Positions 20,017-39,109 of a stretch of DNA of 39,186 nt are shown piece by piece. The stretch lies in assembly GCA_030537595.1 (NCBI GenBank), contig JAUNVR010000010.1:17324-56509 (forward strand), given 5' to 3'. Source of the DNA: Eubacteriales bacterium. GTDB lineage: Bacteria; Bacillota; Clostridia; Saccharofermentanales; DTU023. Positions within the stretch are counted from its first letter, which is position 1. Each line of letters starts with the position of its first letter. The position numbers and the translations under genes are program-made. The notes under the pieces were generated by a model, which saw only the letters and a list, made by a program, of their open reading frames with translations, searched no databases and was not told the DNA's origin.

Positions 20017-23000
20017 ATGGTAAAACCCGTTCAATACGGCCGCAGTGAGAGAATGTCGTATTCGAAGATCGAGGAAGTTCTAGATATTCCCCATTTGATG
20101 GAAATTCAAAAAGCTAGCTACAAGTGGTTCCTGGATGAAGGACTAATGGAGGCTCTCCATGATATGTCACCAATCCGGGATTTTTCCGGGGATATAGAAC
20201 TTTCTTTTTTGGAAAAAGAATTCGATATCGAGAATCCGACCTATTCCATAGCTGAGTGCAAGGAACGTGACACAAACTATGCCGCACCCTTACGCGTCAA
20301 AGTTCGCTTGCACAACAAGCGCGATGATGTAGTTAAGGAACAACTTATCTATATCGGTGAGTTCCCCATCATGACAGAAACGGGAACTTTTATTATCAAC
20401 GGAGCTGAGCGAGCTGTAATTTCACAGTTAGTCCGCTCTCCTGGTGCTTACTTTGACCATGATAGGGATAAGAATAATAACCTGGTCTACAGTGGCCAGA
20501 TTATTCCTAACCGCGGTGCCTGGCTAGAATATGAAACTGATGGTAACGGCCTCTTGTGGGTGCGAATTGATCGGAATCGTAAATTCCACCTGAGCATTTT
20601 CCTCAGAGCTTTGGGCTTTGGCGAAAATGATGAGATTATTGAGCTTCTAGGTGAGGAGCAGCGCCTTTTGGAGACTCTCGAAAAGGATGGCTGCCGGAAT
20701 ACTGATGACGGCCTCCAGGAGCTTTTCCGCAAGTTGCGCCCCGGTGAGGTCTACACCTCCGAAGGTGCAAAAAACTATCTGAACAATCTCTTCTTTGAAG
20801 CTAATCGTTACGATTTGGCTCATGTTGGTATTTATAAACTTAACAAAAAGCTCTCCCTGGCACGACGCCTGATTGGCCACATGGCAGCAGAGCACATTGT
20901 TGATGACTTTGGTGAGATTATCTTGGCCGAAGGTGAGATTATTACCCGCGACAAGGCTTACGAAATTCAAAATGCCGGTCTGAACGCAGTTAAGGTCTAT
21001 CCGATGATTTTAATCGGTGACCAGGTGCAAAAAGGCGAAGAGGCAATTAAGGTCGTAGGCAATAAGCGTGTTTCTCTCCTGCCTTGGTTAGAGCGCCAAT
21101 TTTCAGAAAAAGAGCTGAAGAATTATGATTTCGCTGGCCTCAAGCTTGAAGAGCTGGTTTATCTGCCAGTTTTACAAGAATTACTAGAGCAGGCTAAAGA
21201 GAGCGACAATCCGCTCGAGGCTTTCTATCGTTTGCTCGGCCAGAGCAAGTCTTACTTGCTGCCGCGTCACCTCACAGTGGACGATATTATTGCTTCAATC
21301 AGCTACTTTATTGGCATCGATCATGGGATTGGTCATATCGACGATATCGACCACCTAGGTAACCGCCGGATCCGTTCGGTTGGTGAACTGATGCAGAATG
21401 CAGTCCGGACTGGCTTTGCCCGGATGGAAAGAACAGTGCGCGAGCGGATGCAGTCAACAGATATGGCGACTGCCACCCCGCAGCAGATTATTAATACCAG
21501 GCCAGTTTCAGCAGCGATCAAGGAGTTTTTCGGATCCTCACAGCTTTCGCAGTTCTTGGATCAACCGAACCCCCTGGCTGAGCTGACCCATAAACGTCGT
21601 CTCTCGGCACTCGGACCTGGTGGTCTCTCACGTGAGCGCGCGAACTTTGAAGTGCGTGACGTCCACGCATCACACTACGGCAGAATGTGTCCGATTGAAA
21701 CACCAGAAGGACCGAACATCGGCCTGATTGTCTCTTTGGCAACTTATGCCAGGGTCAATCGCTACGGCTTTATCGAAACTCCGTACCGAGTTTACGATAA
21801 GGAAAAAGGCGTTGTGACCGATGAGATTCGCTACATGACCGCGGACGAAGAGGACTACTTCTACATCGCCCAGGCTAATGAGCCGCTGGATGAGAATGGT
21901 AAGTTTATGAATAAGCGTATCGTCTGCCGCTACATCGACCAATTCGTCGAGATGGAACCGGCAGAGGTCGACCTCATGGACGTTTCGCCGAAGCAGTTAG
22001 TTTCAGTAGCCACGGCTCTGATTCCCTTCCTCGGTAATGACGACGCATCACGTGCCCTCATGGGTTCGAACATGCAGCGTCAGGCAGTTCCGGTCATTCG
22101 TCCGGAAGCCCCAATTATTGGGACTGGGATGGAATATCGCGTGGCCAAAGACTCCGGTACCTGCGAAGTCGCAAAGCGTGATGGTGTAGTCAAGTATGTC
22201 TCAGCTGACGAAATTATCGTCGAAGCAGGCAAGGATGAGTACGACCACTATAAATTGACTAAGTACCGCCGCTCGAACCAGGGTACCTGTGACAATCAGC
22301 GTCCTCTGGTCCGCGCCGGAGAAGAAGTCAAGGCCGGTGACATCATTGCAGATGGTCCGTCCACCGATAACGGTGAGCTGGCTCTCGGCCGTAACGTCCT
22401 GATTGGCTTCATGACCTGGGAAGGTTACAACTACGAAGACGCTGTCCTGATTAGTGAGCGCCTCGTTAAAGATGACGTATATACCTCAATTCATATTGAA
22501 GAATACGAGTGTGAAGCTCGTGATACCAAGCTGGGTCCGGAAGAAATCACCCGTGAAATTCCGAACGTCAGCGACGATATGCTAAAGGACTTAGACGAAA
22601 ACGGAATTATCCGAATTGGTGCTGAAGTCAATGCCGGCGATATTCTGGTTGGTAAGATTTCACCTAAGGGTGAAACCGAGCTGACTCCTGAGGAGCGCCT
22701 CTATCGGGCAATCTTTGGTGAGAAGATTCGTGAGGTTCGTGATACCTCAACCAGAGTTCCCCACGGTGAGTCCGGAATCGTAGTTGAAGTCCGCGAATTC
22801 ACCCGCGAGCAGGGCGACGAGCTGAAGCACGGTGTAACCCGTCTAGTTCGCGTCTATGTAGCCAAGAAACATAAAATTTCAGTCGGTGACAAGATGGCTG
22901 GGCGCCACGGTAACAAGGGTGTTATCTCCCGTGTTCTGCCTGAAGAGGATATGCCCTTCATGCCAGATGGAACACCGCTAGATATCGTACTCAATCCCCT

Positions 23001-23772
23001 GGGCGTACCCTCACGTATGAACCTGGGACAGCTGCTTGAAGTCCACCTCGGTCTAGCTGCGAAGAAGCTCGGCTGGAAGATTGCCACCCCGGTCTTTGAC
23101 GGAGCGACGGAAGAGAATATCTCCGAGGCCTTTGCCTTAGCCGGGATGGATCCTGATGGAAAGACCGTGCTTTACGATGGGCGGACCGGTGAGCCATTCG
23201 AGAACCGAGTTACAGTCGGTATCATGTACTATCTGAAGCTAATTCACTTAGTCGATGATAAGATCCACGCCCGTTCGATTGGTCCTTACTCCTTGGTTAC
23301 CCAGCAGCCTCTGGGTGGTAAAGCTCAGTTCGGTGGTCAGCGCTTTGGTGAGATGGAAGTTTGGGCTCTGGAAGCTTACGGTGCCTCGAATACCTTGCAG
23401 GAAGTCCTGACAGTTAAATCCGACGACATCAAGGGTAGAACCAGAACCTACGAGGCCATCGTCAAGGGTGAGAACATCCCCGAGCCGGGTGTTCCTGAGG
23501 CCTTCCGCGTCCTGGTTAAGGAACTGCAATCTTTGGCCCTGAATGTCGACATCTACGAAGATGACGAGAAAATCCCTGATGTGCAGAAGCGTCTGGAGGA
23601 AAGCGAAGTCGAGTCAGCTATTGATGCGGATAAGATTGAGTCTGAAACCTTCAGTGACTTCTTCGATGAGGGGGCGGCCGGAGCCTTTGAAGCGGCTGGC
23701 TTCAGTACTGAGAATGCGGACGGCGAAAAAGTCACGGCAGCAACAGCAGATGATTCTGCAGACGCAGAATAG
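20017..23772 (+). CDS. rpoB: DNA-directed RNA polymerase subunit beta
   Basis: This is the 1251-residue beta subunit of RNA polymerase, forming one side of the active-site cleft. The rifampicin-binding segment is complete ([14 protein letters not shown] then [14 protein letters not shown], nt about 21529-21635). The [12 protein letters not shown] segment is near nt 22890, and [20 protein letters not shown] near nt 23316-23375. The C-terminal tail is acidic (about the last 45 residues). A TTG precedes the ATG at 20017; the ATG fits the GAGGTGA site better (6 nt spacing) and is chosen. Usually rplJ-rplL comes just before rpoB; here it follows a parvulin pair, with its own promoter and leader. 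rpoC starts 17 nt downstream. Confidence 0.98.
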
Positions 23773-23789
23773 AAAGTTCAGGTGTAATT

Positions 23790-26700
23790 GTGTCAGATAT
23801 TAGTAATTTTTCTGCAATTGGAATTAGTTTGGCGTCACCGGAGACCATTCTCGAATGGTCTAACGGCGAGGTCAAGAAACCTGAAACCATTAACTACAGA
23901 ACTCTAAAACCCGAACGTGACGGGCTCTTTTGTGAGCGTATCTTCGGTCCAACAAAGGACTGGGAGTGTCACTGCGGTAAGTATAAAAAAGTTCGTTACA
24001 GAGGTATTGTCTGTGACCGCTGCGGCGTAGAAGTCACAAGAGCAAATGTCCGGCGTGAGCGGATGGGCCACATCCAACTGGCCGCACCCTGCTCACATAT
24101 TTGGTACTTCCGGGGCATTCCCTCACGGATGGGGCTGATTTTAGACATGAAGCCGCGCGATATTGAGAAGGTTCTCTACTTCGCCTCCTACGTGGTGATT
24201 GATCCAGGCGATACTCGTTTTGCTTATAAAGAAATTATCTCTGAACAGGACTATCGGGTGGCGCGGGAAGAATTCGGACGCCATAACTTCGATGCAAGAA
24301 TGGGTGCTGAAGCAATTAAGGTTTTGCTGCAGCAAATTGACGTGCCTGCTTTGGCCACAGAATTGCGGGCTGAATTACGCGAGTCTAAGGGTCAGAAGAA
24401 AGTCCGTCTGATTAAACGTCTAGAAGTCGTTGAAGCCTTCAAGAAAAGTCAGAATAAGCCGGAGTGGATGGTCCTAGATGTCTTGCCGGTCCTGCCGCCT
24501 GAACTGCGCCCCATGGTGCAGCTAGACGGTGGTCGTTTTGCGACCTCTGACTTAAATGACCTTTATCGTCGAGTAATTAATCGAAACAACCGTCTCTCTA
24601 AGCTCCTGTCCTTGGGTGCTCCGGATATCATCATTCGGAACGAAAAGCGGATGCTACAAGAGTCGGTCGATGCCCTGATTGATAATGGTCGCAGAGGCCG
24701 AGCCGTAACTGGAGCCTCGAATCGTGCCTTGAAATCGCTTTCAGACCTCTTAAAGGGTAAGCAAGGCCGTTTCCGTCAGAACTTACTCGGTAAGCGTGTT
24801 GACTACTCAGGCCGTTCAGTTATCGTGGTCGGACCCGAGCTTAAGCTCCACCAGTGTGGTCTGCCAAAAGAGATGGCTTTAGAGCTCTTCAAGCCCTTTA
24901 TTATGCGGGAGATTGTCAAGGCTGGTCATGCCCACAATATCAAGACTGCAAGGCGCTTAGTCGAGCGTGGAACAGATATCGTCTGGGATATTCTCGATGA
25001 AGTTATTGAAGACCACCCCGTGCTCTTGAACCGTGCGCCGACCTTGCACAGACTTTCAATCCAGGCCTTTGAGCCGATTCTAGTTGAAGGTCGGGCAATT
25101 AAGTTGCATCCTCTAGTCTGTACTGCTTATAACGCCGACTTTGACGGTGACCAGATGTCAGTTTATGTGCCCTTGTCGGCTGAAGCCCAGGCTGAAGCAC
25201 GCTTCCTGATGCTGTCCTCGAACAACCTCTTGAAGCCGCAGGATGGCAAGCCGGTAACCGTACCGACCCAGGACATGGTCCTCGGTGTCTACTACATGAC
25301 CATTGCCAAAGAGGGCGCTAAGGGTGAAGGTCGTGCCTTCTCCTCACTCGATGAGGCGATTATGGCCTACAACCAGCATGAGCTGGAGCTCCATGCAATG
25401 ATTAAGGTCCGGCAGACTGTCACTTACGAAGGTCAGGAGTACCGCGGCATTGTCGAATCGACACTGGGTCGGATGCTCTTTAACCAAATGATTCCACAAA
25501 ATCTCGACTACGTAGACCGCAGCGATGAGGCCAACCGCTTCAAGCTGGAATGTGACTTCGTAGTTGGTAAGAAGCAGCTCGGGAAGATTATTGAGCGCTG
25601 CATCGAAAATAACGGCATGACCTATACAGCTGGCATGCTCGACAAGATTAAGTCTTTAGGCTATCACTATTCGACGGTCGGTGGCTTGTCCTTAGGTATC
25701 TTTGACATGATTATTCCGGATATCAAGGAACAGCTGATTAAAGAAGCCGAGGATAAGGTCGAATTCATTAATAACCAGCACCAGCGTGGTATTTTGAACG
25801 ACGAGGGCCGCTATAAGGCCGTTGTCGACATCTGGCGCCAAACCACTGATGACATTACCGAGGCCTTGAAGGATAAGCTCGATGAGTTTAACCCGGTCTA
25901 CATGATGAGTCAGTCAGGTGCTAGAGGTAATATTAACCAGATTAAACAGCTCGCTGGTATGCGTGGTAACATGGTTGACACTTCTGGACGTACCCTGGAA
26001 ATTCCGATTAAGTCGAACTTCCGTGAAGGTATGAACGTGCTTGAGTTCTTTATCTCTTCTCACGGTGCGAGAAAAACGCTTTCTGACATCGCTTTGAAGA
26101 CGGCAGACTCAGGTTACTTGACCAGACGTTTGGTCGATATTGCCCAAGACGTTGTCATCCGTGAAGAGGACTGTGGGACCGATGAATACATCGAAGTTTC
26201 TGCAGTCACCGTCGGCGGTAGCAGAAACCGCCGTGTGGTTGAGCGTCTCGCCGATCGGATTACCGGGCGTTACCTGGCGCGCGACCTCTACAATCCTGAA
26301 AGCGAAGAGCTTATTTTGAAGGCTGGTGCCTTAATTAGGCGTCGTGATGCTGAGGAAATTGAAAATCTCGGGATCACTAGGGTGCCGGTGCGCTCCAACC
26401 TGACCTGCCAATCTCACCTCGGCGTCTGTGCTAAGTGCTACGGTAATAACCTGGCGACCAATGGCCCGGCAACCATCGGTGAAGCAGTTGGTATTATGGC
26501 TGCACAGTCAATCGGTGAACCGGGTACGCAGCTCACGATGAGAACCTTCCACATGGGTGGTATTGCATCATCTGACGACATCACGCAGGGTCTACCTAGA
26601 GTTGAAGAACTCTTTGAAGCCAGAAAGCCAAAGGGCTCGGCAATTATTACCGAAATCAGCGGCACAATTCAGGTTGACGAGAGTGATCGCAAGAAGCGAG

Positions 26701-27347
26701 TTGTCACAGTTACCCCAGACGAGGGCGAAGCTGCCTCATACTCGATTCCGATCTCAACCCCAATCCTGGTCGAGAGCGGCGATATTATCGAAGCCGGTGA
26801 CCGTCTAACCGAAGGCTCAGTCAATCCACATGACATCATGCAGATTAAGGGAGCTCAGGGCGTGCAGAACTACATCATCAACGAGGTTCTGAAGGTCTAT
26901 AAGAACAACGGTGTTGATATCAACGATAAGCATATTGAGATTATCGTGCGGCAGATGCTGCGGATGGTCAAAGTTGATGATCCAGGTGAGACCGATCTTC
27001 TAACCGGTTCGACAATCTCCCTTTACGACTTTAACGATGCCAACCGTGAAGCCGCTGAAAAGGGCCTAGAACTGGCCTCCGGTAAGCGAGTCCTGCTCGG
27101 TATTACAAAGGCTTCATTGGCCACAGAATCCTTCCTCTCTGCAGCCTCCTTCCAGGAGCAAACCAGAGTCCTCACCGATGCTGCGGTCAAGGGTAAGATT
27201 GACGGCCTAGTTGGTCTTAAAGAGAACGTTATCATCGGTAAGCTGATTCCAGCAGGCACCGGTCTCATGCGCTATCGCAATATCACTGCAGCGCCGAGAA
27301 TTCCGGAAAATGCTGAAGTGATTAAAACCCACGGGATTGAAGTCTAG
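23790..27347 (+). CDS. rpoC: DNA-directed RNA polymerase subunit beta'
   Basis: The 1185-residue beta' subunit holds the catalytic magnesium site: NADFDGDQM near nt 25131-25157. The N-terminal zinc finger [19 protein letters not shown] is present, as is a second Cys cluster ([13 protein letters not shown], near nt 26404-26442), and the trigger-loop region [18 protein letters not shown]. The length matches Clostridia-type beta' without large lineage-specific inserts. The start is GTG at 23790 with AGGTG 6 nt upstream, 17 nt after rpoB, so the two are co-translated for polymerase assembly. A terminator follows at 27430. Confidence 0.98.
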
Positions 27348-27429
27348 CCGGAACAGTCGAAATTCAGAGCTTTAAGAGAGTTCTCAGGAACTTTCACAAG
27401 AATTCAGAAAAATTTCACATTTACTTCAC

Positions 27430-27460
27430 AAAGCACCCTTGCCAAAGCGGGGGTGCTTTT
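27430..27460 (+). terminator. Terminator of rpoBC
   Basis: AAAGCACCC (27430-27438) pairs with GGGTGCTTT (27451-27459) and is followed by further T. The loop holds TTGCCA, which is also the -35 hexamer of the ctsR promoter, so the two elements overlap. Confidence 0.82.
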
Positions 27461-27467
27461 CTATTAT
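27439..27467 (+). promoter_or_regulatory. ctsR-clpC promoter overlapping the rpoC terminator
   Basis: TTGCCA (27439-27444) and TATTAT (27462-27467) are 17 nt apart, the same hexamers and spacing as the rpsL promoter. The -35 lies in the terminator loop and the spacer covers its right arm and T-run. The predicted start is about 27474, immediately before the CtsR operator. Confidence 0.72.
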
Positions 27468-27477
27468 AGATGTAGTA

Positions 27478-27512
27478 AGTCAAAGATAGTCAAAAGGTAA
27501 TAGTTAGTCAAA
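27478..27512 (+). promoter_or_regulatory. CtsR operator with an extra heptad
   Basis: AGTCAAA-GAT-AGTCAAA (27478-27494) is an exact match to the known CtsR consensus RGTCAAA-NAN-RGTCAAA. A third AGTCAAA follows at 27506-27512, 18 bp after the second heptad begins. The site lies just downstream of the predicted start, so CtsR binding would block initiation of its own operon. Confidence 0.92.
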
Positions 27513-27526
27513 GTAAATCTAAATAC

Positions 27527-27561
27527 GGCCAAAAAGCATCAGCTTTCCAAAGCTTTTGGCC
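27527..27561 (+). promoter_or_regulatory. Leader hairpin upstream of ctsR
   Basis: GGCCAAAAAGC (27527-27537) pairs with GCTTTTGGCC (27552-27561) over 10 bp with one bulged A. It is followed by CGCTTTAATC, which is not a convincing terminator tail. It lies in the ctsR 5' leader about 35 nt before the ribosome binding site; its function is unknown. Confidence 0.4.
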
Positions 27562-27608
27562 CGCTTTAATCATTAAAGAGCAAGAGCAACTGGAGAAAGG
27601 AGCCGATA

Positions 27609-28097
27609 ATGAGTTTAATCAGTGACCATATTGAAGAAGTCATCTTAGGGCTATTAGCGGCCAATGATGGTGAGGCGAAGTTTAAGCGCTCGGGAATTGC
27701 CGAGCTTTTGGAATGCGCACCATCCCAGATTAGCTATGTGATTCAGACCCGTTTCAACTACGGGCAGGGATATACAACAGAAAGCCGGCGCGGTGAAGGT
27801 GGCTACATTATTGTCCGCCAGATAAAAAGCGATCCGGAGGCTCAGGAATTGAGGCACTTTGCCTACAATATAAAAGATACTTTGGCCGAGAAAGAAACAG
27901 AAGTAATGTTAAGAAATCTAAATCAGGCGGGAATCATCACTGATGACTTATTGACTGTTATGCAGGCTGTCAGCAGTGAGTTAAGCCGACTGAATATTGA
28001 CAGCGCAAGGCGCGATAAGCTGCGAGCAGATTTATTGCGCGCGATGCTGATGGCCCTTTTGGCCTCGGATTACGGAAAAAATCTAAAGAAGGAGTGA
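27609..28097 (+). CDS. ctsR: CtsR heat-shock repressor
   Basis: The 162-residue protein is the repressor of clp genes. Its winged-helix domain (1-75) reads [36 protein letters not shown] and [16 protein letters not shown], matching CtsR. The C-terminal half (about 80-160) is the helical dimerisation domain with [17 protein letters not shown] near the end. Two points are odd. The glycine loop that acts as the heat sensor in Bacillus (GGGG) reads G62-E63-G64-G65, although the preceding arginine is kept as R61. And no mcsA or mcsB follows: the stop codon at 28095-28097 lies 5 nt before the clpC ATG. The ATG has AAAGGAG. The promoter carries its own operator, so the operon is self-controlled. Confidence 0.95.
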
Positions 28098-28102
28098 TTG
28101 AT

Positions 28103-30721
28103 ATGTTAGTTAGATTATCAGAAAGAGCAGCCAATGTTTTGGCAGCTGCATATAAAATTGCTGGTAGCTATCAGATTAGCTACCTCGGGACTGAGCATAT
28201 CCTGGCCGCAATTCTGGCCGAGAAGGGTAGTCCGGCAGAAGAAATTTTAGCCGGCCAAGGCTTAGACCACGAAAAAATGGAAATGGTTTTGACTCAATAT
28301 TATGGGCGTGAGCCTAGAGCAGCCTTAGTTCCAGAAAGTAGTGATTTGGAAAAATTATTAGAGGGCATGACCCCACGCACACAGCAAGTTATTAACCTGG
28401 CTGCGCGTGAGGCTCAGATGCGAAGAAATAGCCAGGTCGAACCAGAGCACCTGCTCTTGGCCTGCCTGCGTGAGAATAATAGCCTGACCGCAAAGATTCT
28501 CGAAGCAGCTGGGATTAGCGCCCAGAAAACCTATATGATCTTGAATCAAGTCTTGGAAGAAAGCCGCGATGAGGCCAGCCAGGATTTCACGGCAAAGTCG
28601 CATGAAAGTAGAGGCCAAGCCGAGTCCGAGTCGAAGACTCCGACCCTCGATCAATTCTCGCAGGACTACTCACAGATTGCTGCTGATGATGGCTTTGATC
28701 CGATTATCGGTAGAGACGAGGAAGTTCTACGGGTGATGCAGATTCTCGGGCGCAGAACGAAGAATAACCCGGTGCTGATCGGTGAGCCTGGTGTCGGTAA
28801 AACGGCAATCGTAGAAGGTCTGGCTCAGAAAATTGTCGCCGGCGATGTCCCCGAATTGCTGCGTGGGAAGCGCCTGATTTCACTAGATTTATCGGGCATG
28901 CTAGCGGGTGCAAAATACCGTGGTGAGTTTGAAGAGCGCCTGAAGAAGGGCCTCGATGAGGCTGACGCTGCCGGTGATGTAATTCTCTTTATTGATGAAT
29001 TGCATACGATTATTGGAGCCGGTGCAACAGAGGGTGCGATGGATGCTGCAAATATCCTAAAGCCGATGCTCGCCAGAGGTAAGATGCAGGTGATTGGTGC
29101 GACAACTTTGAATGAGTACCGTAAGCATATCGAAAAAGATGCCGCCCTCGAACGACGCTTCCAGCCGGTCATGGTTAATGAACCTTCAAAGGAAGATAGC
29201 CTACAGATTCTGCTGGGACTTCGCCCGAAATACGAGGAGCATCATCAGGTGAAAATCTCTGATGAAGCAATCGAGGCAGCAGTCGAGCTGTCGAGCAGAT
29301 ATATCGCTGATCGCTTCCTCCCAGATAAGGCAATTGACTTGATTGATGAGGCGGCTTCGAAGATGCGGCTCCAGCGCGTCACTCAGCCAGATGATATTCG
29401 CGAGCTAGAAAGTGAATTAGCTGAAGTCGTAGCCAAAAAAGAAAGTGCAGCAAGTGTTGAAAACTTCGAAGAAGCTGCGAAGCTTCGACAACGCGAGTGC
29501 CAAATCAACGAAGAGTTGAAAACTGCCAGAGCGGAACAAAAAACAGTCGAGAAAGAGAACTCAGAACTATTTGCTGATGAGATTGCTGATGTCGTTTCAC
29601 AGTGGACTGGCATTCCGGTTAGAAAGCTTACCGAAAATGAGAATCAACGCTTAAAGATGCTCGATGCAGAAATTGCCAAAAGAGTTATTGGCCAAGCTGA
29701 AGCAGTCGAAGCAGTTGCGAAGGCAATTCGCCGTGGTCGTCTGGGTCTTAAAGATCCTAAGCGCCCGACCGGTTCCTTTATCTTCCTAGGTTCTACCGGG
29801 GTTGGTAAAACCGAGCTGGCAAAGGCTTTGGCCGAGGAAATCTTTGGCGATAAGAATGCGCTAATCAGAGTCGATATGTCCGAATATATGGAGAAATTTG
29901 ATGTTTCTAAACTAATCGGTTCTCCTCCGGGCTATGTCGGTTACGATGAAGGCGGGCAATTGACCGAGAAAGTTCGTAGACGGCCCTATTCAGTGGTCCT
30001 CTTTGACGAAATCGAGAAAGCCCACCCCGATGTCTTTAATATTCTCCTCCAGCTCTTGGACGACGGTCGTTTAACCGATGCCCAGGGTCGGACGGTGGAT
30101 TTCAAGAACACCATCGTGATTATGACCTCTAATCTCGGCGCTAGACTGATTAGTGAGAAGAGCGGACGCTTCGGCTTTACAAGTGATAATGAGACTGAAG
30201 CTAAGGCTGAGCTTTATGGCGGCAAGAGCTATAAGGAGGCGAAGGATTTAGTTCTGGCAGAGGTCAAAAAGACCTTCCCACCAGAATTCCTGAACCGGAT
30301 TGACGATATTATCTTCTTCCACATGCTCGACAATGAAGCCATGCTGAAGATTTCTGACATCATGCTCAACGAGCTCGGTAAGCGGGTTCAGGATTTAGGC
30401 TATCAATTGTCGGTGACAGATGCTGCCAGACAGTTCCTAGCTGAGCACGGCTATGAGCCAGAGTATGGTGCAAGACCACTACGTCGTCTAATCCAGACCG
30501 AGGTCGAGGATCGCTTCTCTGAAAGTATCCTTGCAGGTGTTCTCCGAACAGGGGACGAGGCCGTGGTCGATCTAGCAGCCAACGGTGAAGAACTAGAAGT
30601 CAGACGAGGCGAGGCGAAGCTAAGCCCCGAAGACGAGGTGAAGCCAGCTGAGCAGGAAAAAGATGCAAAAGCACCTGAAGCTCCTGAAACTACAGTCGAT
30701 CAGGAAGACTTAAAAGAGTAA
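28103..30721 (+). CDS. clpC: ATP-dependent Clp protease ATP-binding subunit ClpC
   Basis: ClpC is a ring-forming AAA+ unfoldase that feeds proteins to ClpP. The 872-residue sequence has two N-terminal Clp repeats (about 1-150), AAA domain 1 with Walker [10 protein letters not shown] (about 227-235) and [21 protein letters not shown], a UVR-type coiled middle segment ([13 protein letters not shown]), AAA domain 2 with GSTGVGKTE and [19 protein letters not shown], and an acidic tail. GTG at 28094 opens the frame earlier, but the ATG at 28103 lies 8 nt after AAGGAG and begins with the family N-terminus MLVRLSERA. It is paired with ctsR alone. In Bacillus, ClpC works with the adaptor McsB; that gene is absent from this operon. 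A terminator follows. Confidence 0.97.
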
Positions 30722-30756
30722 AGCAAAATTGAAAATCAAATAATTCACTAGAATTG

Positions 30757-30791
30757 CCCCGGTAATTGGCCTGTCCAATACCGGGGTTTTT
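30757..30791 (+). terminator. Terminator of ctsR-clpC
   Basis: CCCCGGTA-a-TTGG (30757-30769) pairs with CCAATACCGGGG (30775-30786) over 12 bp with one bulge, followed by TTTTT (30787-30791). Confidence 0.88.
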
Positions 30792-30818
30792 AATTGCCCG
30801 CCGATTTCCCCGTAAGAA

Positions 30819-30840
30819 CTTTAGTTCAGCTTTAGTTCAG
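30819..30840 (+). repeat. Tandem 11-bp repeat
   Basis: CTTTAGTTCAG occurs twice head to tail (30819-30829, 30830-30840) in the gene-free stretch between clpC and the XRE gene (30792-31048). It may be chance slippage; no role is assigned. Apart from this and a possible promoter, nothing else is seen in that gap. Confidence 0.4.
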
Positions 30841-30898
30841 CGAAGAGCCACAGCAATAAATAGTCTGAATATTAGCTCCAGAAGTCAAACTCAACTAC

Positions 30899-30907: not shown

Positions 30908-31048
30908 ACAGATACAACCAGCAGTTAAGAAATTTTACTAGATTCAACGGCTAATCCCTGTTCTGGAGCTGCTCTAAGCGGAATAATGGAGATGTAGAAA
31001 AAAGCAGATGCTTAGAAATAAGCTTTATACCTAGCAAAGGAGCTAAAG

Positions 31049-31921: not shown

Positions 31922-32707
31922 ATGCAGATCGCCTATCTTGAAGACCAAGCATTGGATCAAGAGCAGATGCTCAATCTGCTCGGGACTTGGATTGAGGAAC
32001 GCTCGCCGCAGTCGGCAGTGAGCATCTTTCCCGATGCCAAGTCCTTCCTCTTTGCCCTGGAAGATCAGCATTTTGACCTCTATCTATTCGATATCTTGAT
32101 GCCAGGCCAAGATGGGCTGAGCCTCGCCCGGGAGCTTAGAGCGCAGGGCAATGAGAGCCCGATTGTCTTCATCACCTCGGAAATAGACTATGTCCTCGCA
32201 GGTTACAAGGTCGCCGCGACCGACTACCTCTTAAAACCCATCGAGAAAACAGAACTCTACCAAGTCTTAGATCGCGTGGAAAAAGCCCTGAGCAGCAATA
32301 GACCCGCTCTTGTCCTCGAGCATGCAGAGGGTCTGGAGACGGTTTTTATAGATCAGATTCTGGCGGTGGAAGCCGCGGACAAAGAGGTGATCTACAGTCT
32401 AAAAAATCCCAAGGAGAGCCGCCAGATTCGCCTGCGTGAGAGCCTCCAAGCTGTGGAAGAGCGACTCGCTGAACTAGGTTTCGGCCGTCAATTTCAGCGG
32501 ATTCACAGGGGAGTACTCGTCAATCTATCCTTCGTTCAACGGATTGAGCAAACTGAGGTCCTAATGCAGGACGGTCAGATTTTTCCTCTGGCGCGCAATC
32601 GAAGGCGCGAAGTTATGGCCCAATATTTGGCCTATCGCAAGGCGCGGGCTGCTGAGCGCAGCGGGTATACACCAGAAGCTGCAGCGGAAGAAGGAGGGGC
32701 GAAATGA
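31922..32707 (+). CDS. LytTR-family response regulator
   Basis: The 261-residue protein has an N-terminal receiver domain (about 1-125), with phospho-acceptor D57 in FDLYLFDILMPGQDG and the conserved Lys in TDYLLKP. A C-terminal LytTR DNA-binding domain (about 135-240) reads IDQILAVEAADKEVIY, RIHRGVLVNLSFVQRIE and DGQIFPLARNRRREV. It belongs to the AgrA/ComE group of activators that usually respond to peptide signals. The ATG has a GAGGGT site. The gene overlaps the kinase gene by 4 nt (ATGA), as is usual for a signalling pair. The regulated promoter is not known; the exporter downstream is a natural candidate. Confidence 0.93.
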   Translation: MQIAYLEDQALDQEQMLNLLGTWIEERSPQSAVSIFPDAKSFLFALEDQHFDLYLFDILMPGQDGLSLARELRAQGNESPIVFITSEIDYVLAGYKVAATDYLLKPIEKTELYQVLDRVEKALSSNRPALVLEHAEGLETVFIDQILAVEAADKEVIYSLKNPKESRQIRLRESLQAVEERLAELGFGRQFQRIHRGVLVNLSFVQRIEQTEVLMQDGQIFPLARNRRREVMAQYLAYRKARAAERSGYTPEAAAEEGGAK

Positions 32708-37691: not shown

Positions 37692-37907
37692 CTATGCTTC
37701 CTCATCTGGGCAAAATTCGAGAATGTCGCCTGGCTGACAGTCGAGGGCCTCGCAGATCGCATTTAAAGTCGTGAAGCGGATGGCCCTCGCCTTGCCAGTT
37801 TTCAAGATGGAAAGATTGTTGATATTGATGCCGACCGCATCACTTAGTTCGCTTAATTGCATTTTGCGTTGAGCGAGTACTACATCCAAATTGACAATAA
37901 TCGCCAT
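37692..37907 (-). CDS. Small HTH regulator (YozG/XRE type), partner of a DUF2975 protein
   Basis: The 71-residue protein is a compact helix-turn-helix repressor-like regulator: LAQRKMQLSELSDAVG, then INNLSILKTGKARAIRFTTLNAICEALDCQPGDILEF. Such proteins consist of the HTH and little else. The ATG at 37907 is chosen because the preceding gene's TAA stop is separated from it by a single base (TAAGATG), with GGTGG 8 nt upstream; the longer frame adds 16 codons overlapping the upstream gene. The pairing of this type of regulator with a DUF2975-like membrane protein is common in Bacillota (recalled). It may regulate its own operon, possibly through the heptad array upstream. Confidence 0.88.
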   Translation of the reverse strand: MAIIVNLDVVLAQRKMQLSELSDAVGININNLSILKTGKARAIRFTTLNAICEALDCQPGDILEFCPDEEA

Positions 37908-37908
37908 C

Positions 37909-38391
37909 TTATACCACCAAATCGCTTTCTTCCTTGTAGGCAACGGAGCGCGCAAAGAGGTTTGCGAGGAAGTAGATGATGTTCATCGCGGCGAAGATGC
38001 AGGCTGAAAAGAGTAGTACTTGGCCGCCGACCAGGCCGACCTCCTTACCCATTTGGCTGTAGCCATAGATGTAAATTGAAAGACAGGAGAGAAAGGAGAA
38101 GAGGGTAGCGTGTCCCATGAGTTGGAGATGCTTTACCGTTCTTGTCGAGAAAATCTTCGCGTCTTGGCTGATATAGACGAGCCTGATTGCCGTGCCGATA
38201 GTCACGATGAAACCCAGAAGCATCAGGTAGCAGAGAGCGAGGATCGGATATTGCATGTAGTCAAAGCCGGCCTTAGCGACATCAGCTGCCATGATGACCG
38301 AGGATAGGTAAAAGAAATAGTAGCCAGATAGGCAGACAATAAGGGCTCCCGTAAGTGAGAGTAAGACTAAGATGTAGTTCAGTTTTTTCAT
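37909..38391 (-). CDS. DUF2975-like membrane protein
   Basis: This 160-residue protein has four likely membrane helices (about 6-30, 46-70, 90-112 and 123-145) separated by short loops, and the family-like segment DAKIFSTRTVKHLQLMGHATLF in its middle (two parts, given as DAKIFSTRTVKH and LQLMGHATLF). The ATG at 38391 has AGGAGGT upstream; a longer frame from 38430 has no site. It is followed after one base by its HTH partner, so the two are translationally coupled. The function of this family is not established; it is usually read as a membrane partner of the regulator. An array of repeated heptads lies upstream. Confidence 0.82.
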   Translation of the reverse strand: MKKLNYILVLLSLTGALIVCLSGYYFFYLSSVIMAADVAKAGFDYMQYPILALCYLMLLGFIVTIGTAIRLVYISQDAKIFSTRTVKHLQLMGHATLFSFLSCLSIYIYGYSQMGKEVGLVGGQVLLFSACIFAAMNIIYFLANLFARSVAYKEESDLVV

Positions 38392-38411
38392 GCTGACCTC
38401 CTTTTTCAATG

Positions 38412-38440
38412 AAGATAGCATAAGATTCAACGATAATCAA
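38412..38440 (-). promoter_or_regulatory. Promoter of the DUF2975-HTH operon
   Basis: On the minus strand TTGATT (38440-38435) is followed after 17 nt by TATCTT (38417-38412). The predicted start is about 38405, 14 nt upstream of the ATG. Confidence 0.5.
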
Positions 38441-38478
38441 TGATTTTATTTAGGTTAATTTTGAGTTCGCTATTTTTG

Positions 38479-38570
38479 CGTATCATTTAGGGTGGAATTT
38501 CCACCAGATTGTTACGAAAAGTGATACGAAAGACGATTTTACGTATCAATTTGTTACGTAAAATGATACG
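38479..38570 (-). promoter_or_regulatory. Array of six TGWTACG heptads (candidate operator/activator sites)
   Basis: TGTTACG lies at 38510-38516 and 38552-38558; TGATACG at 38522-38528 and 38564-38570; and TGATACG in inverse orientation at 38479-38485 and 38542-38548. The plus-oriented heptads form two units, each TGTTACG then TGATACG starting 12 bp later, and the units are 42 bp apart. A 10-bp inverted repeat ATTTTACGTA/TACGTAAAAT (38536-38545, 38555-38564) overlaps them. The array sits 40-130 bp upstream of the -35 of the DUF2975-HTH operon. Confidence 0.6.
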
Positions 38571-38610: not shown

Positions 38611-38652
38611 AAAAAGCCAGATTCCTGCGATAGCAGAACCTGGCTTTCTTTT
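38611..38652 (-). terminator. Terminator of rpiB
   Basis: On the minus strand AAAGCCAG (38647-38640) pairs with CTGGCTTT (38620-38613), with an inner CTGC/GCAG helix, followed by TT and a T-rich tail. A perfect palindrome TTTTACGTAAAA (38649-38660), related to the TACGTA core of the nearby array, lies between it and the rpiB stop. Confidence 0.78.
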
Positions 38653-38674: not shown

Positions 38675-39109
38675 CTATTCGAGCTCCATAATCTTATTGA
38701 CACGCCTTTCATGGCGGCCACCTTCAAATTCAGTATTGACGAAGGTGCTGACAAGACGCTTGGCGATTTCTTCGCCCACGACTCGAGCTCCAAAGGCTAA
38801 AGCGTTAGCGTTATTGTGTCTGCGCGACATCTCAGCAGAGAAGGTCTCTGAACAAGCGCAGCAGCGGATCCCCTTAACCTTGTTGGCTGCAAGGCTCATG
38901 CCGATGCCCGTGCCGCAGATGAGAATGGCAAGATCTGCTTCTCCATTGACGACTGCCTCACAGGCGGGCTTGGCAAAATCAGGGTAGTCACAAGACTCTT
39001 CAGTATCAGTGCCGAAATTAAGGACTTCATGCCCTAGGTCCTTGAGTTCAGCTGTTACAAGATCTTTCATTTGAACGGCGGCGTGATCATTTGCAATGGC
39101 GATTTTCAT
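38675..39109 (-). CDS. rpiB: Ribose-5-phosphate isomerase B
   Basis: The 144-residue enzyme interconverts ribose-5-phosphate and ribulose-5-phosphate in the pentose phosphate pathway. It has the RpiB/LacAB fold motifs: MKIAIANDHAA at the N-terminus, SCDYPDFA, the catalytic Cys in ILICGTGIGMS, the ANKVKGIRCC stretch, and SRRHNNANALAFGARVVG. Galactose-6-phosphate isomerase (LacA/LacB) belongs to the same superfamily, but the single gene and ICGTGIGMS motif favour RpiB. The ATG at 39109 follows GGAGG directly; a TTG four codons upstream is part of the ribosome binding site and is rejected. It has its own promoter and terminator. Confidence 0.95.
   Translation of the reverse strand: MKIAIANDHAAVQMKDLVTAELKDLGHEVLNFGTDTEESCDYPDFAKPACEAVVNGEADLAILICGTGIGMSLAANKVKGIRCCACSETFSAEMSRRHNNANALAFGARVVGEEIAKRLVSTFVNTEFEGGRHERRVNKIMELE

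Follow-up and report, generated by a model that had tools for sequence, protein, structure and literature searches.

Gene pairs of the Xre/YoaS-like type were listed by Makarova et al. in 2009 and set aside as not being type II toxin-antitoxin systems (PMC2701414). Rows of 7-bp regulator sites are known from other settings, with SinR of Bacillus subtilis acting on GTTCTYT heptad operators in direct and inverted orientation (PMC3163267) and NarL/NarP of Escherichia coli recognizing heptamer sites of the form TACYYMT (PMC4886647). The 39,186-nucleotide stretch of DNA analyzed here, referred to as the window, carries a row of six TGWTACG heptads upstream of a DUF2975-HTH_26 operon. This array works like the SinR and NarL/NarP arrays and is by motif a member of neither; it is a regulatory element of an ordinary kind.

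The operon has the gene order of the YoaS-YozG type, with a gene for a 160-amino-acid DUF2975 membrane protein (37909 to 38391, minus strand; PF11188, E value of 2e-12; 94% identity with its counterpart in the congener G001) followed directly on the same strand by a gene for a 71-amino-acid HTH_26 (Cro/C1-type) regulator (37692 to 37907; PF13443, E value of 1e-22), whose matches are to Cro/C1-type HTH domains only. By inspection, we assigned a putative sigma-70-type promoter to positions 38412 to 38440 of the minus strand, composed of TTGATT (38440 to 38435), a 17-bp spacer, and TATCTT (38417 to 38412) with an upstream TG. The candidate promoter is absent from the output of a generic, stricter consensus promoter scan; it is kept in the congener, where the sole change is one spacer base beside the -10 element. 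The array is flanked on one side by a terminator-like hairpin of rpiB read in the sequence at 38611 to 38647, with rpiB itself (RpiB, PF02502) at 38675 to 39109 on the minus strand, and on the other side by the DUF2975-HTH_26 operon, which is transcribed away from it.

All six TGWTACG copies that the preliminary description had placed within the 92 bp from 38479 to 38570 were found, starting at 38479 (minus), 38510 (plus), 38522 (plus), 38542 (minus), 38552 (plus), and 38564 (plus). Four of them form two units with an internal 12-bp step, TGTTACG-AAAAG-TGATACG at 38510 to 38528 (unit A) and TGTTACG-TAAAA-TGATACG at 38552 to 38570 (unit C). As described before, these units lie 42 bp apart and differ at 2 of 20 bases (38509 to 38528 compared with 38551 to 38570), and the remaining two heptads, both TGATACG (38479 to 38485 and 38542 to 38548), are inverted. 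Heptads 4 and 5 together form the palindrome CGTATCA-N3-TGWTACG. The whole window contains eight TGWTACG matches, where five are expected, and six of these fall inside the 92 bp. When the 290-bp intergenic region was subjected to 300 dinucleotide shuffles, with all heptad families having one 2-fold degenerate position considered, the most copies of any family per 92 bp was four, compared with the six observed. The heptad cluster is therefore real and not a product of chance. The heptad centers (38482, 38513, 38525, 38545, 38555, and 38567, with successive steps of 31, 12, 20, 10, and 12 bp) lie on one helical face with a spread of about 0.15 turn at 10.5 bp per turn (Rayleigh P of about 0.002, a value to be read with the duplicated unit in mind, as the sites are not fully independent). 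Relative to the putative promoter, they are centered at about -77 to -162; because it precedes the likely start site by some 70 to 165 bp, the array is unlike a simple promoter block, and this part of the preliminary description also holds.

The genus sample consists of two genomes, the second being the Eubacteriales metagenome-assembled genome that we refer to as G001 (contig JAUNVU010000008.1). All six heptads are found beside the orthologous operon in this congener with identical spacing, so that the phased array has been kept. Only 2 of 42 heptad positions differ between the two, both being T-to-A changes at the W position; for the neighboring noncoding stretches the figures are 17 of 38 and 8 of 24, and beyond the array 8 of 40. 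Heptads 1 and 4 are identical in the congener, and units A and C read TGATACG-CAAAG-TGATACG and TGATACG-CAAAA-TGATACG there, having changed in parallel from TGTTACGW to TGATACGC. The nonheptad positions within 38510 to 38570 are conserved as well (3 of 26 changed), and the whole block is therefore constrained. Such a block could in principle be an RNA or DNA hairpin, either a leader RNA or a cruciform, in which the heptads are only stem arms, and it does fold better than shuffled sequences on both strands (z scores of -3.8 and -4.6). However, 5 of the 31 predicted stem pairs differ in the congener and all 5 are broken, with none compensated; no Rfam match was found, the putative promoter lies downstream of the block, and protein sites in inverse orientation give such folds by themselves. 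We consider a hairpin highly improbable and rejected a conserved RNA hairpin or riboswitch as a candidate.

The array is also without a counterpart elsewhere. A second heptad pair at a distance of 30 bp or less, in any orientation, was found neither in the 1.55-Mb genome nor in G001, and the expectation that pairs at a 12-bp step would recur elsewhere in the genome was not borne out: in both genomes, no further direct 12-bp pair was found at zero or one mismatch, and two-mismatch matches were fewer than for the reversed control. At completeness values of 96% for the window's genome (G000) and 68% for G001, a few targets could have escaped the search. A pattern search across 188 genomes of the order gave matches that were not above the reversed-pattern control and were single. 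The one repeated match, in genome G017, was rejected as a regulatory array, as it falls inside an adhesin-like coding repeat; at this locus (L210, 5955 to 5973 and 10448 to 10466), two tandem adhesin-like genes have acidic repeats that yield TGATACGGAAACTGATACG within the coding sequence. Upstream of other DUF2975-HTH operons, the search for heptad clusters returned only unrelated repeats (L076, L090, and L149), those of L090 (genome G388) being minisatellite-like and rich in CACACC. The idea that the heptads stand upstream of homologous operons thus holds within the genus and fails outside it. A literature search for the TGWTACG motif returned no relevant paper.

These data also bear on whether the array is a functionless remnant, left by a local tandem duplication or by the end of a mobile element. 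The near-identity of units A and C is what a duplication would leave, and unrelated repeats do occur upstream of the operon in other relatives (L090 and L149). Against this, the array is not repeated elsewhere in the genome, no transposase is found among the genes beside it, and conservation is concentrated in the heptads, with the parallel change of the two units in the congener. A remnant is in our judgment very unlikely. The array is a single-target, genus-conserved regulatory element, and the heptads very probably serve as binding sites for a gene-regulatory protein.

Known heptad regulators offer likenesses and differences. The array resembles the SinR system in having several 7-bp sites, direct and inverted, upstream of or over a promoter, and differs from it in motif; moreover, SinR acts at several promoters and carries an oligomerization domain, whereas the 71-residue HTH protein of the window has little beyond the DNA-binding fold. 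In light of its motif, which is not GTTCTYT, and of the Cro/C1-type matches of the protein, a SinR-like heptad operator was rejected. The likeness to NarL/NarP is that these response regulators recognize heptamers in promoter regions; the motif and the phylum are different, and no NarL-type regulator was linked to the array. LytTR (AgrA-type) regulators recognize 9-bp direct repeats with a GTT core at a step of 21 to 22 bp. A LytTR regulator gene lies 6 kb from the array (31922 to 32707), and both arrangements use direct repeats, but the heptads are 12 bp apart and have another core. No heptads were found near the window's LytTR operon, and a LytTR direct-repeat site was rejected on the steps between the heptad centers, which are not 21 to 22 bp.

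For about 150 DUF2975-HTH_26 (YoaS-YozG type) pairs found in the class, order, and family, we extracted the upstream regions. With up to two mismatches, an inverted repeat, TTTATYG-N5-CRATAAA, is present in 109 of 129 distinct upstream regions (other spacers, 2 to 23). Two such operators are spaced by 21 bp in 62 pairs and by 42 bp in 12, and, measured from a TATAAT-like -10 element, most of their centers are 39 or 18 bp upstream. Sites placed in this way at the gene pair's own promoter would normally mark an operator for autorepression. Tandem copies at 21-bp steps occur class-wide (loci L022 to L240), with CATTAAA variants in ISIVNLS-type regulators (L135, L151, and L154). No description of an operator was found in the open literature among papers naming DUF2975, YozG, or YoaS, and the present operator model is apparently the first for pairs of the YoaS-YozG type. 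A by-product of the present analysis, it may outweigh the array itself in usefulness, since it would open the regulation of these pairs, and then their function, to testing in laboratory Bacillus. The array, for its part, gives a widespread, uncharacterized gene pair a cis-regulatory element that can be tested.

The HTH protein of the window falls in a side group whose half-site has diverged. Its recognition helix, GININNLSILKTGK, is identical to that encoded at locus L165, where two operators, ATCAACG-ATAAA-CATTTAC and TTCAATG-TTTAT-CGTGTAT, lie 21 bp apart; the operators of L052, L053, and L055 resemble them. The L165 operators match not the heptads but an operator-like inverted repeat over the -35 element of the window, TTCAACG-ATAAT-CAATGAT at 38426 to 38444 (O1), a predicted HTH_26 site. 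A second operator-like sequence, TTCAATG-AAGAT-AGCATAA at 38405 to 38423 (O2), covers the -10 element at 21 bp from O1. A half-site matrix was built from L165, L052, L053, and L055 with the window left out, using 14 half-sites picked by eye as palindromes, and was scanned over the window and the fetched loci. It ranks O1 second and O2 ninth among all positions of the 39-kb window, where they are the only pair scoring 8 or more at 21 bp, and it picks both in the two genomes, O1 ranking first in the G001 locus. The window's operator sequence has mismatches to the A-type consensus at 4 of 14 positions. O1 and O2 have the N5 inverted repeat and the 21-bp tandem arrangement of the family, and the center of O1, 18 bp upstream of the -10 element, is at one of the two usual places in relatives. 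Taken together, this supports, without proving it, the prediction that the operators of the operon's HTH protein lie on the -35 and -10 elements. With autoregulated Xre and YoaS-like pairs of the B. subtilis yoaS-yozG type, the locus would then have in common the gene pair, the gene order, the HTH_26 sequence, and tandem inverted-repeat promoter operators, and it differs from them in the upstream heptad array, which was not found in relatives outside its genus.

In the reading that we favor, the HTH_26 protein would repress its own operon through the tandem O1 and O2, and the array would be an extra upstream input, a dedicated, genus-specific control element read by a putative regulator other than this protein. 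We give this reading a probability of about 0.5; the figure, like our lower grading of the operon's own protein as binder, is a judgment and not a calculation. That a protein binds the array, which protein this is, and the direction of its effect are inferred.

That the HTH_26 protein would also bind the heptads, noncanonically, is less likely though a tentative case can be made for it: as weak half-sites, the heptads may extend the O1/O2 lattice upstream and strengthen autorepression by cooperativity or looping. This protein is the only regulator encoded beside the array, and regulators that have just one target tend to have their genes beside it, the array being the only such target in the genome. 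The 12-bp step is that of the family's half-sites, and the 42-bp distance is twice the 21-bp operator step; units A and C are in exact 21-bp register with O1 (centers at 84 and 126 bp, or 4 and 6 times 21). By the relatives' matrix of 14 half-sites, TGATACG ranks 487th of 16,384 heptamers, near the A-type consensus itself, and TGTTACG ranks 851st. SinR, likewise a repressor of the Xre family, recognizes 7-bp sequences that occur in mixed orientations (PMC3163267). However, the heptads do not have the inverted half-sites at a 12-bp start-to-start distance that mark the family operator; they are direct at this distance, an arrangement that occurs 0 times among the exact half-sites in 156 upstream regions of relatives, compared with 64 times for the inverted one. 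Dimers on two 19-bp sites at a 12-bp distance would collide sterically, none of the 14 half-sites in the close recognition-helix group has G at position 2, the similarity of the heptads to half-sites is weak, and the predicted operators already occupy the promoter. That a single 71-residue autorepressor reads two unlike words, with the row of six direct and inverted heptads sharing the 21-bp register of the inverted promoter operators and serving cooperative control or looping, is less likely. A covariation between one position of the recognition helix (Ala, Val, or Asn) and the half-site type was considered and dropped; it is broken by L212 (Asn) and L222 (Val) and hence was not used as evidence that the protein reads the heptads. 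The preliminary description had proposed cooperative binding, perhaps by the small HTH protein of the operon. The phased array as a set of protein-binding sites is supported; this protein as the likely binder is not supported as proposed, given the different operator of its family, the position of O1 and O2 on the promoter, and the absence of a direct 12-bp arrangement in relatives. The favored reader of the array is a separate, putative regulator.

Some further features of the region are of note. From 30831 to the contig end (39186), identity with the congener is 88%, while neighboring stretches (21780 to 30795) have 75 to 77%; this difference suggests that the block of XRE, LytTR two-component, ABC transporter, DUF2975-HTH, and rpiB genes was recombined or transferred. 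A perfect tandem repeat of 11 bp, two copies of TTTAGTTCAGC at 30820 to 30841, lies at the edge of the block. Upstream of the operon encoding the XRE and LytTR regulators, an AgrC-like kinase, and the ABC transporter, the word CAGTTAAG at 30922 to 30929 resembles AgrA-type sites. Lastly, a perfect palindrome, GGTGGAATTTCCACC, occupies positions 38491 to 38505 in a gap of the array; its center at 38498 is in the same 21-bp register, and it is degenerate in the congener.
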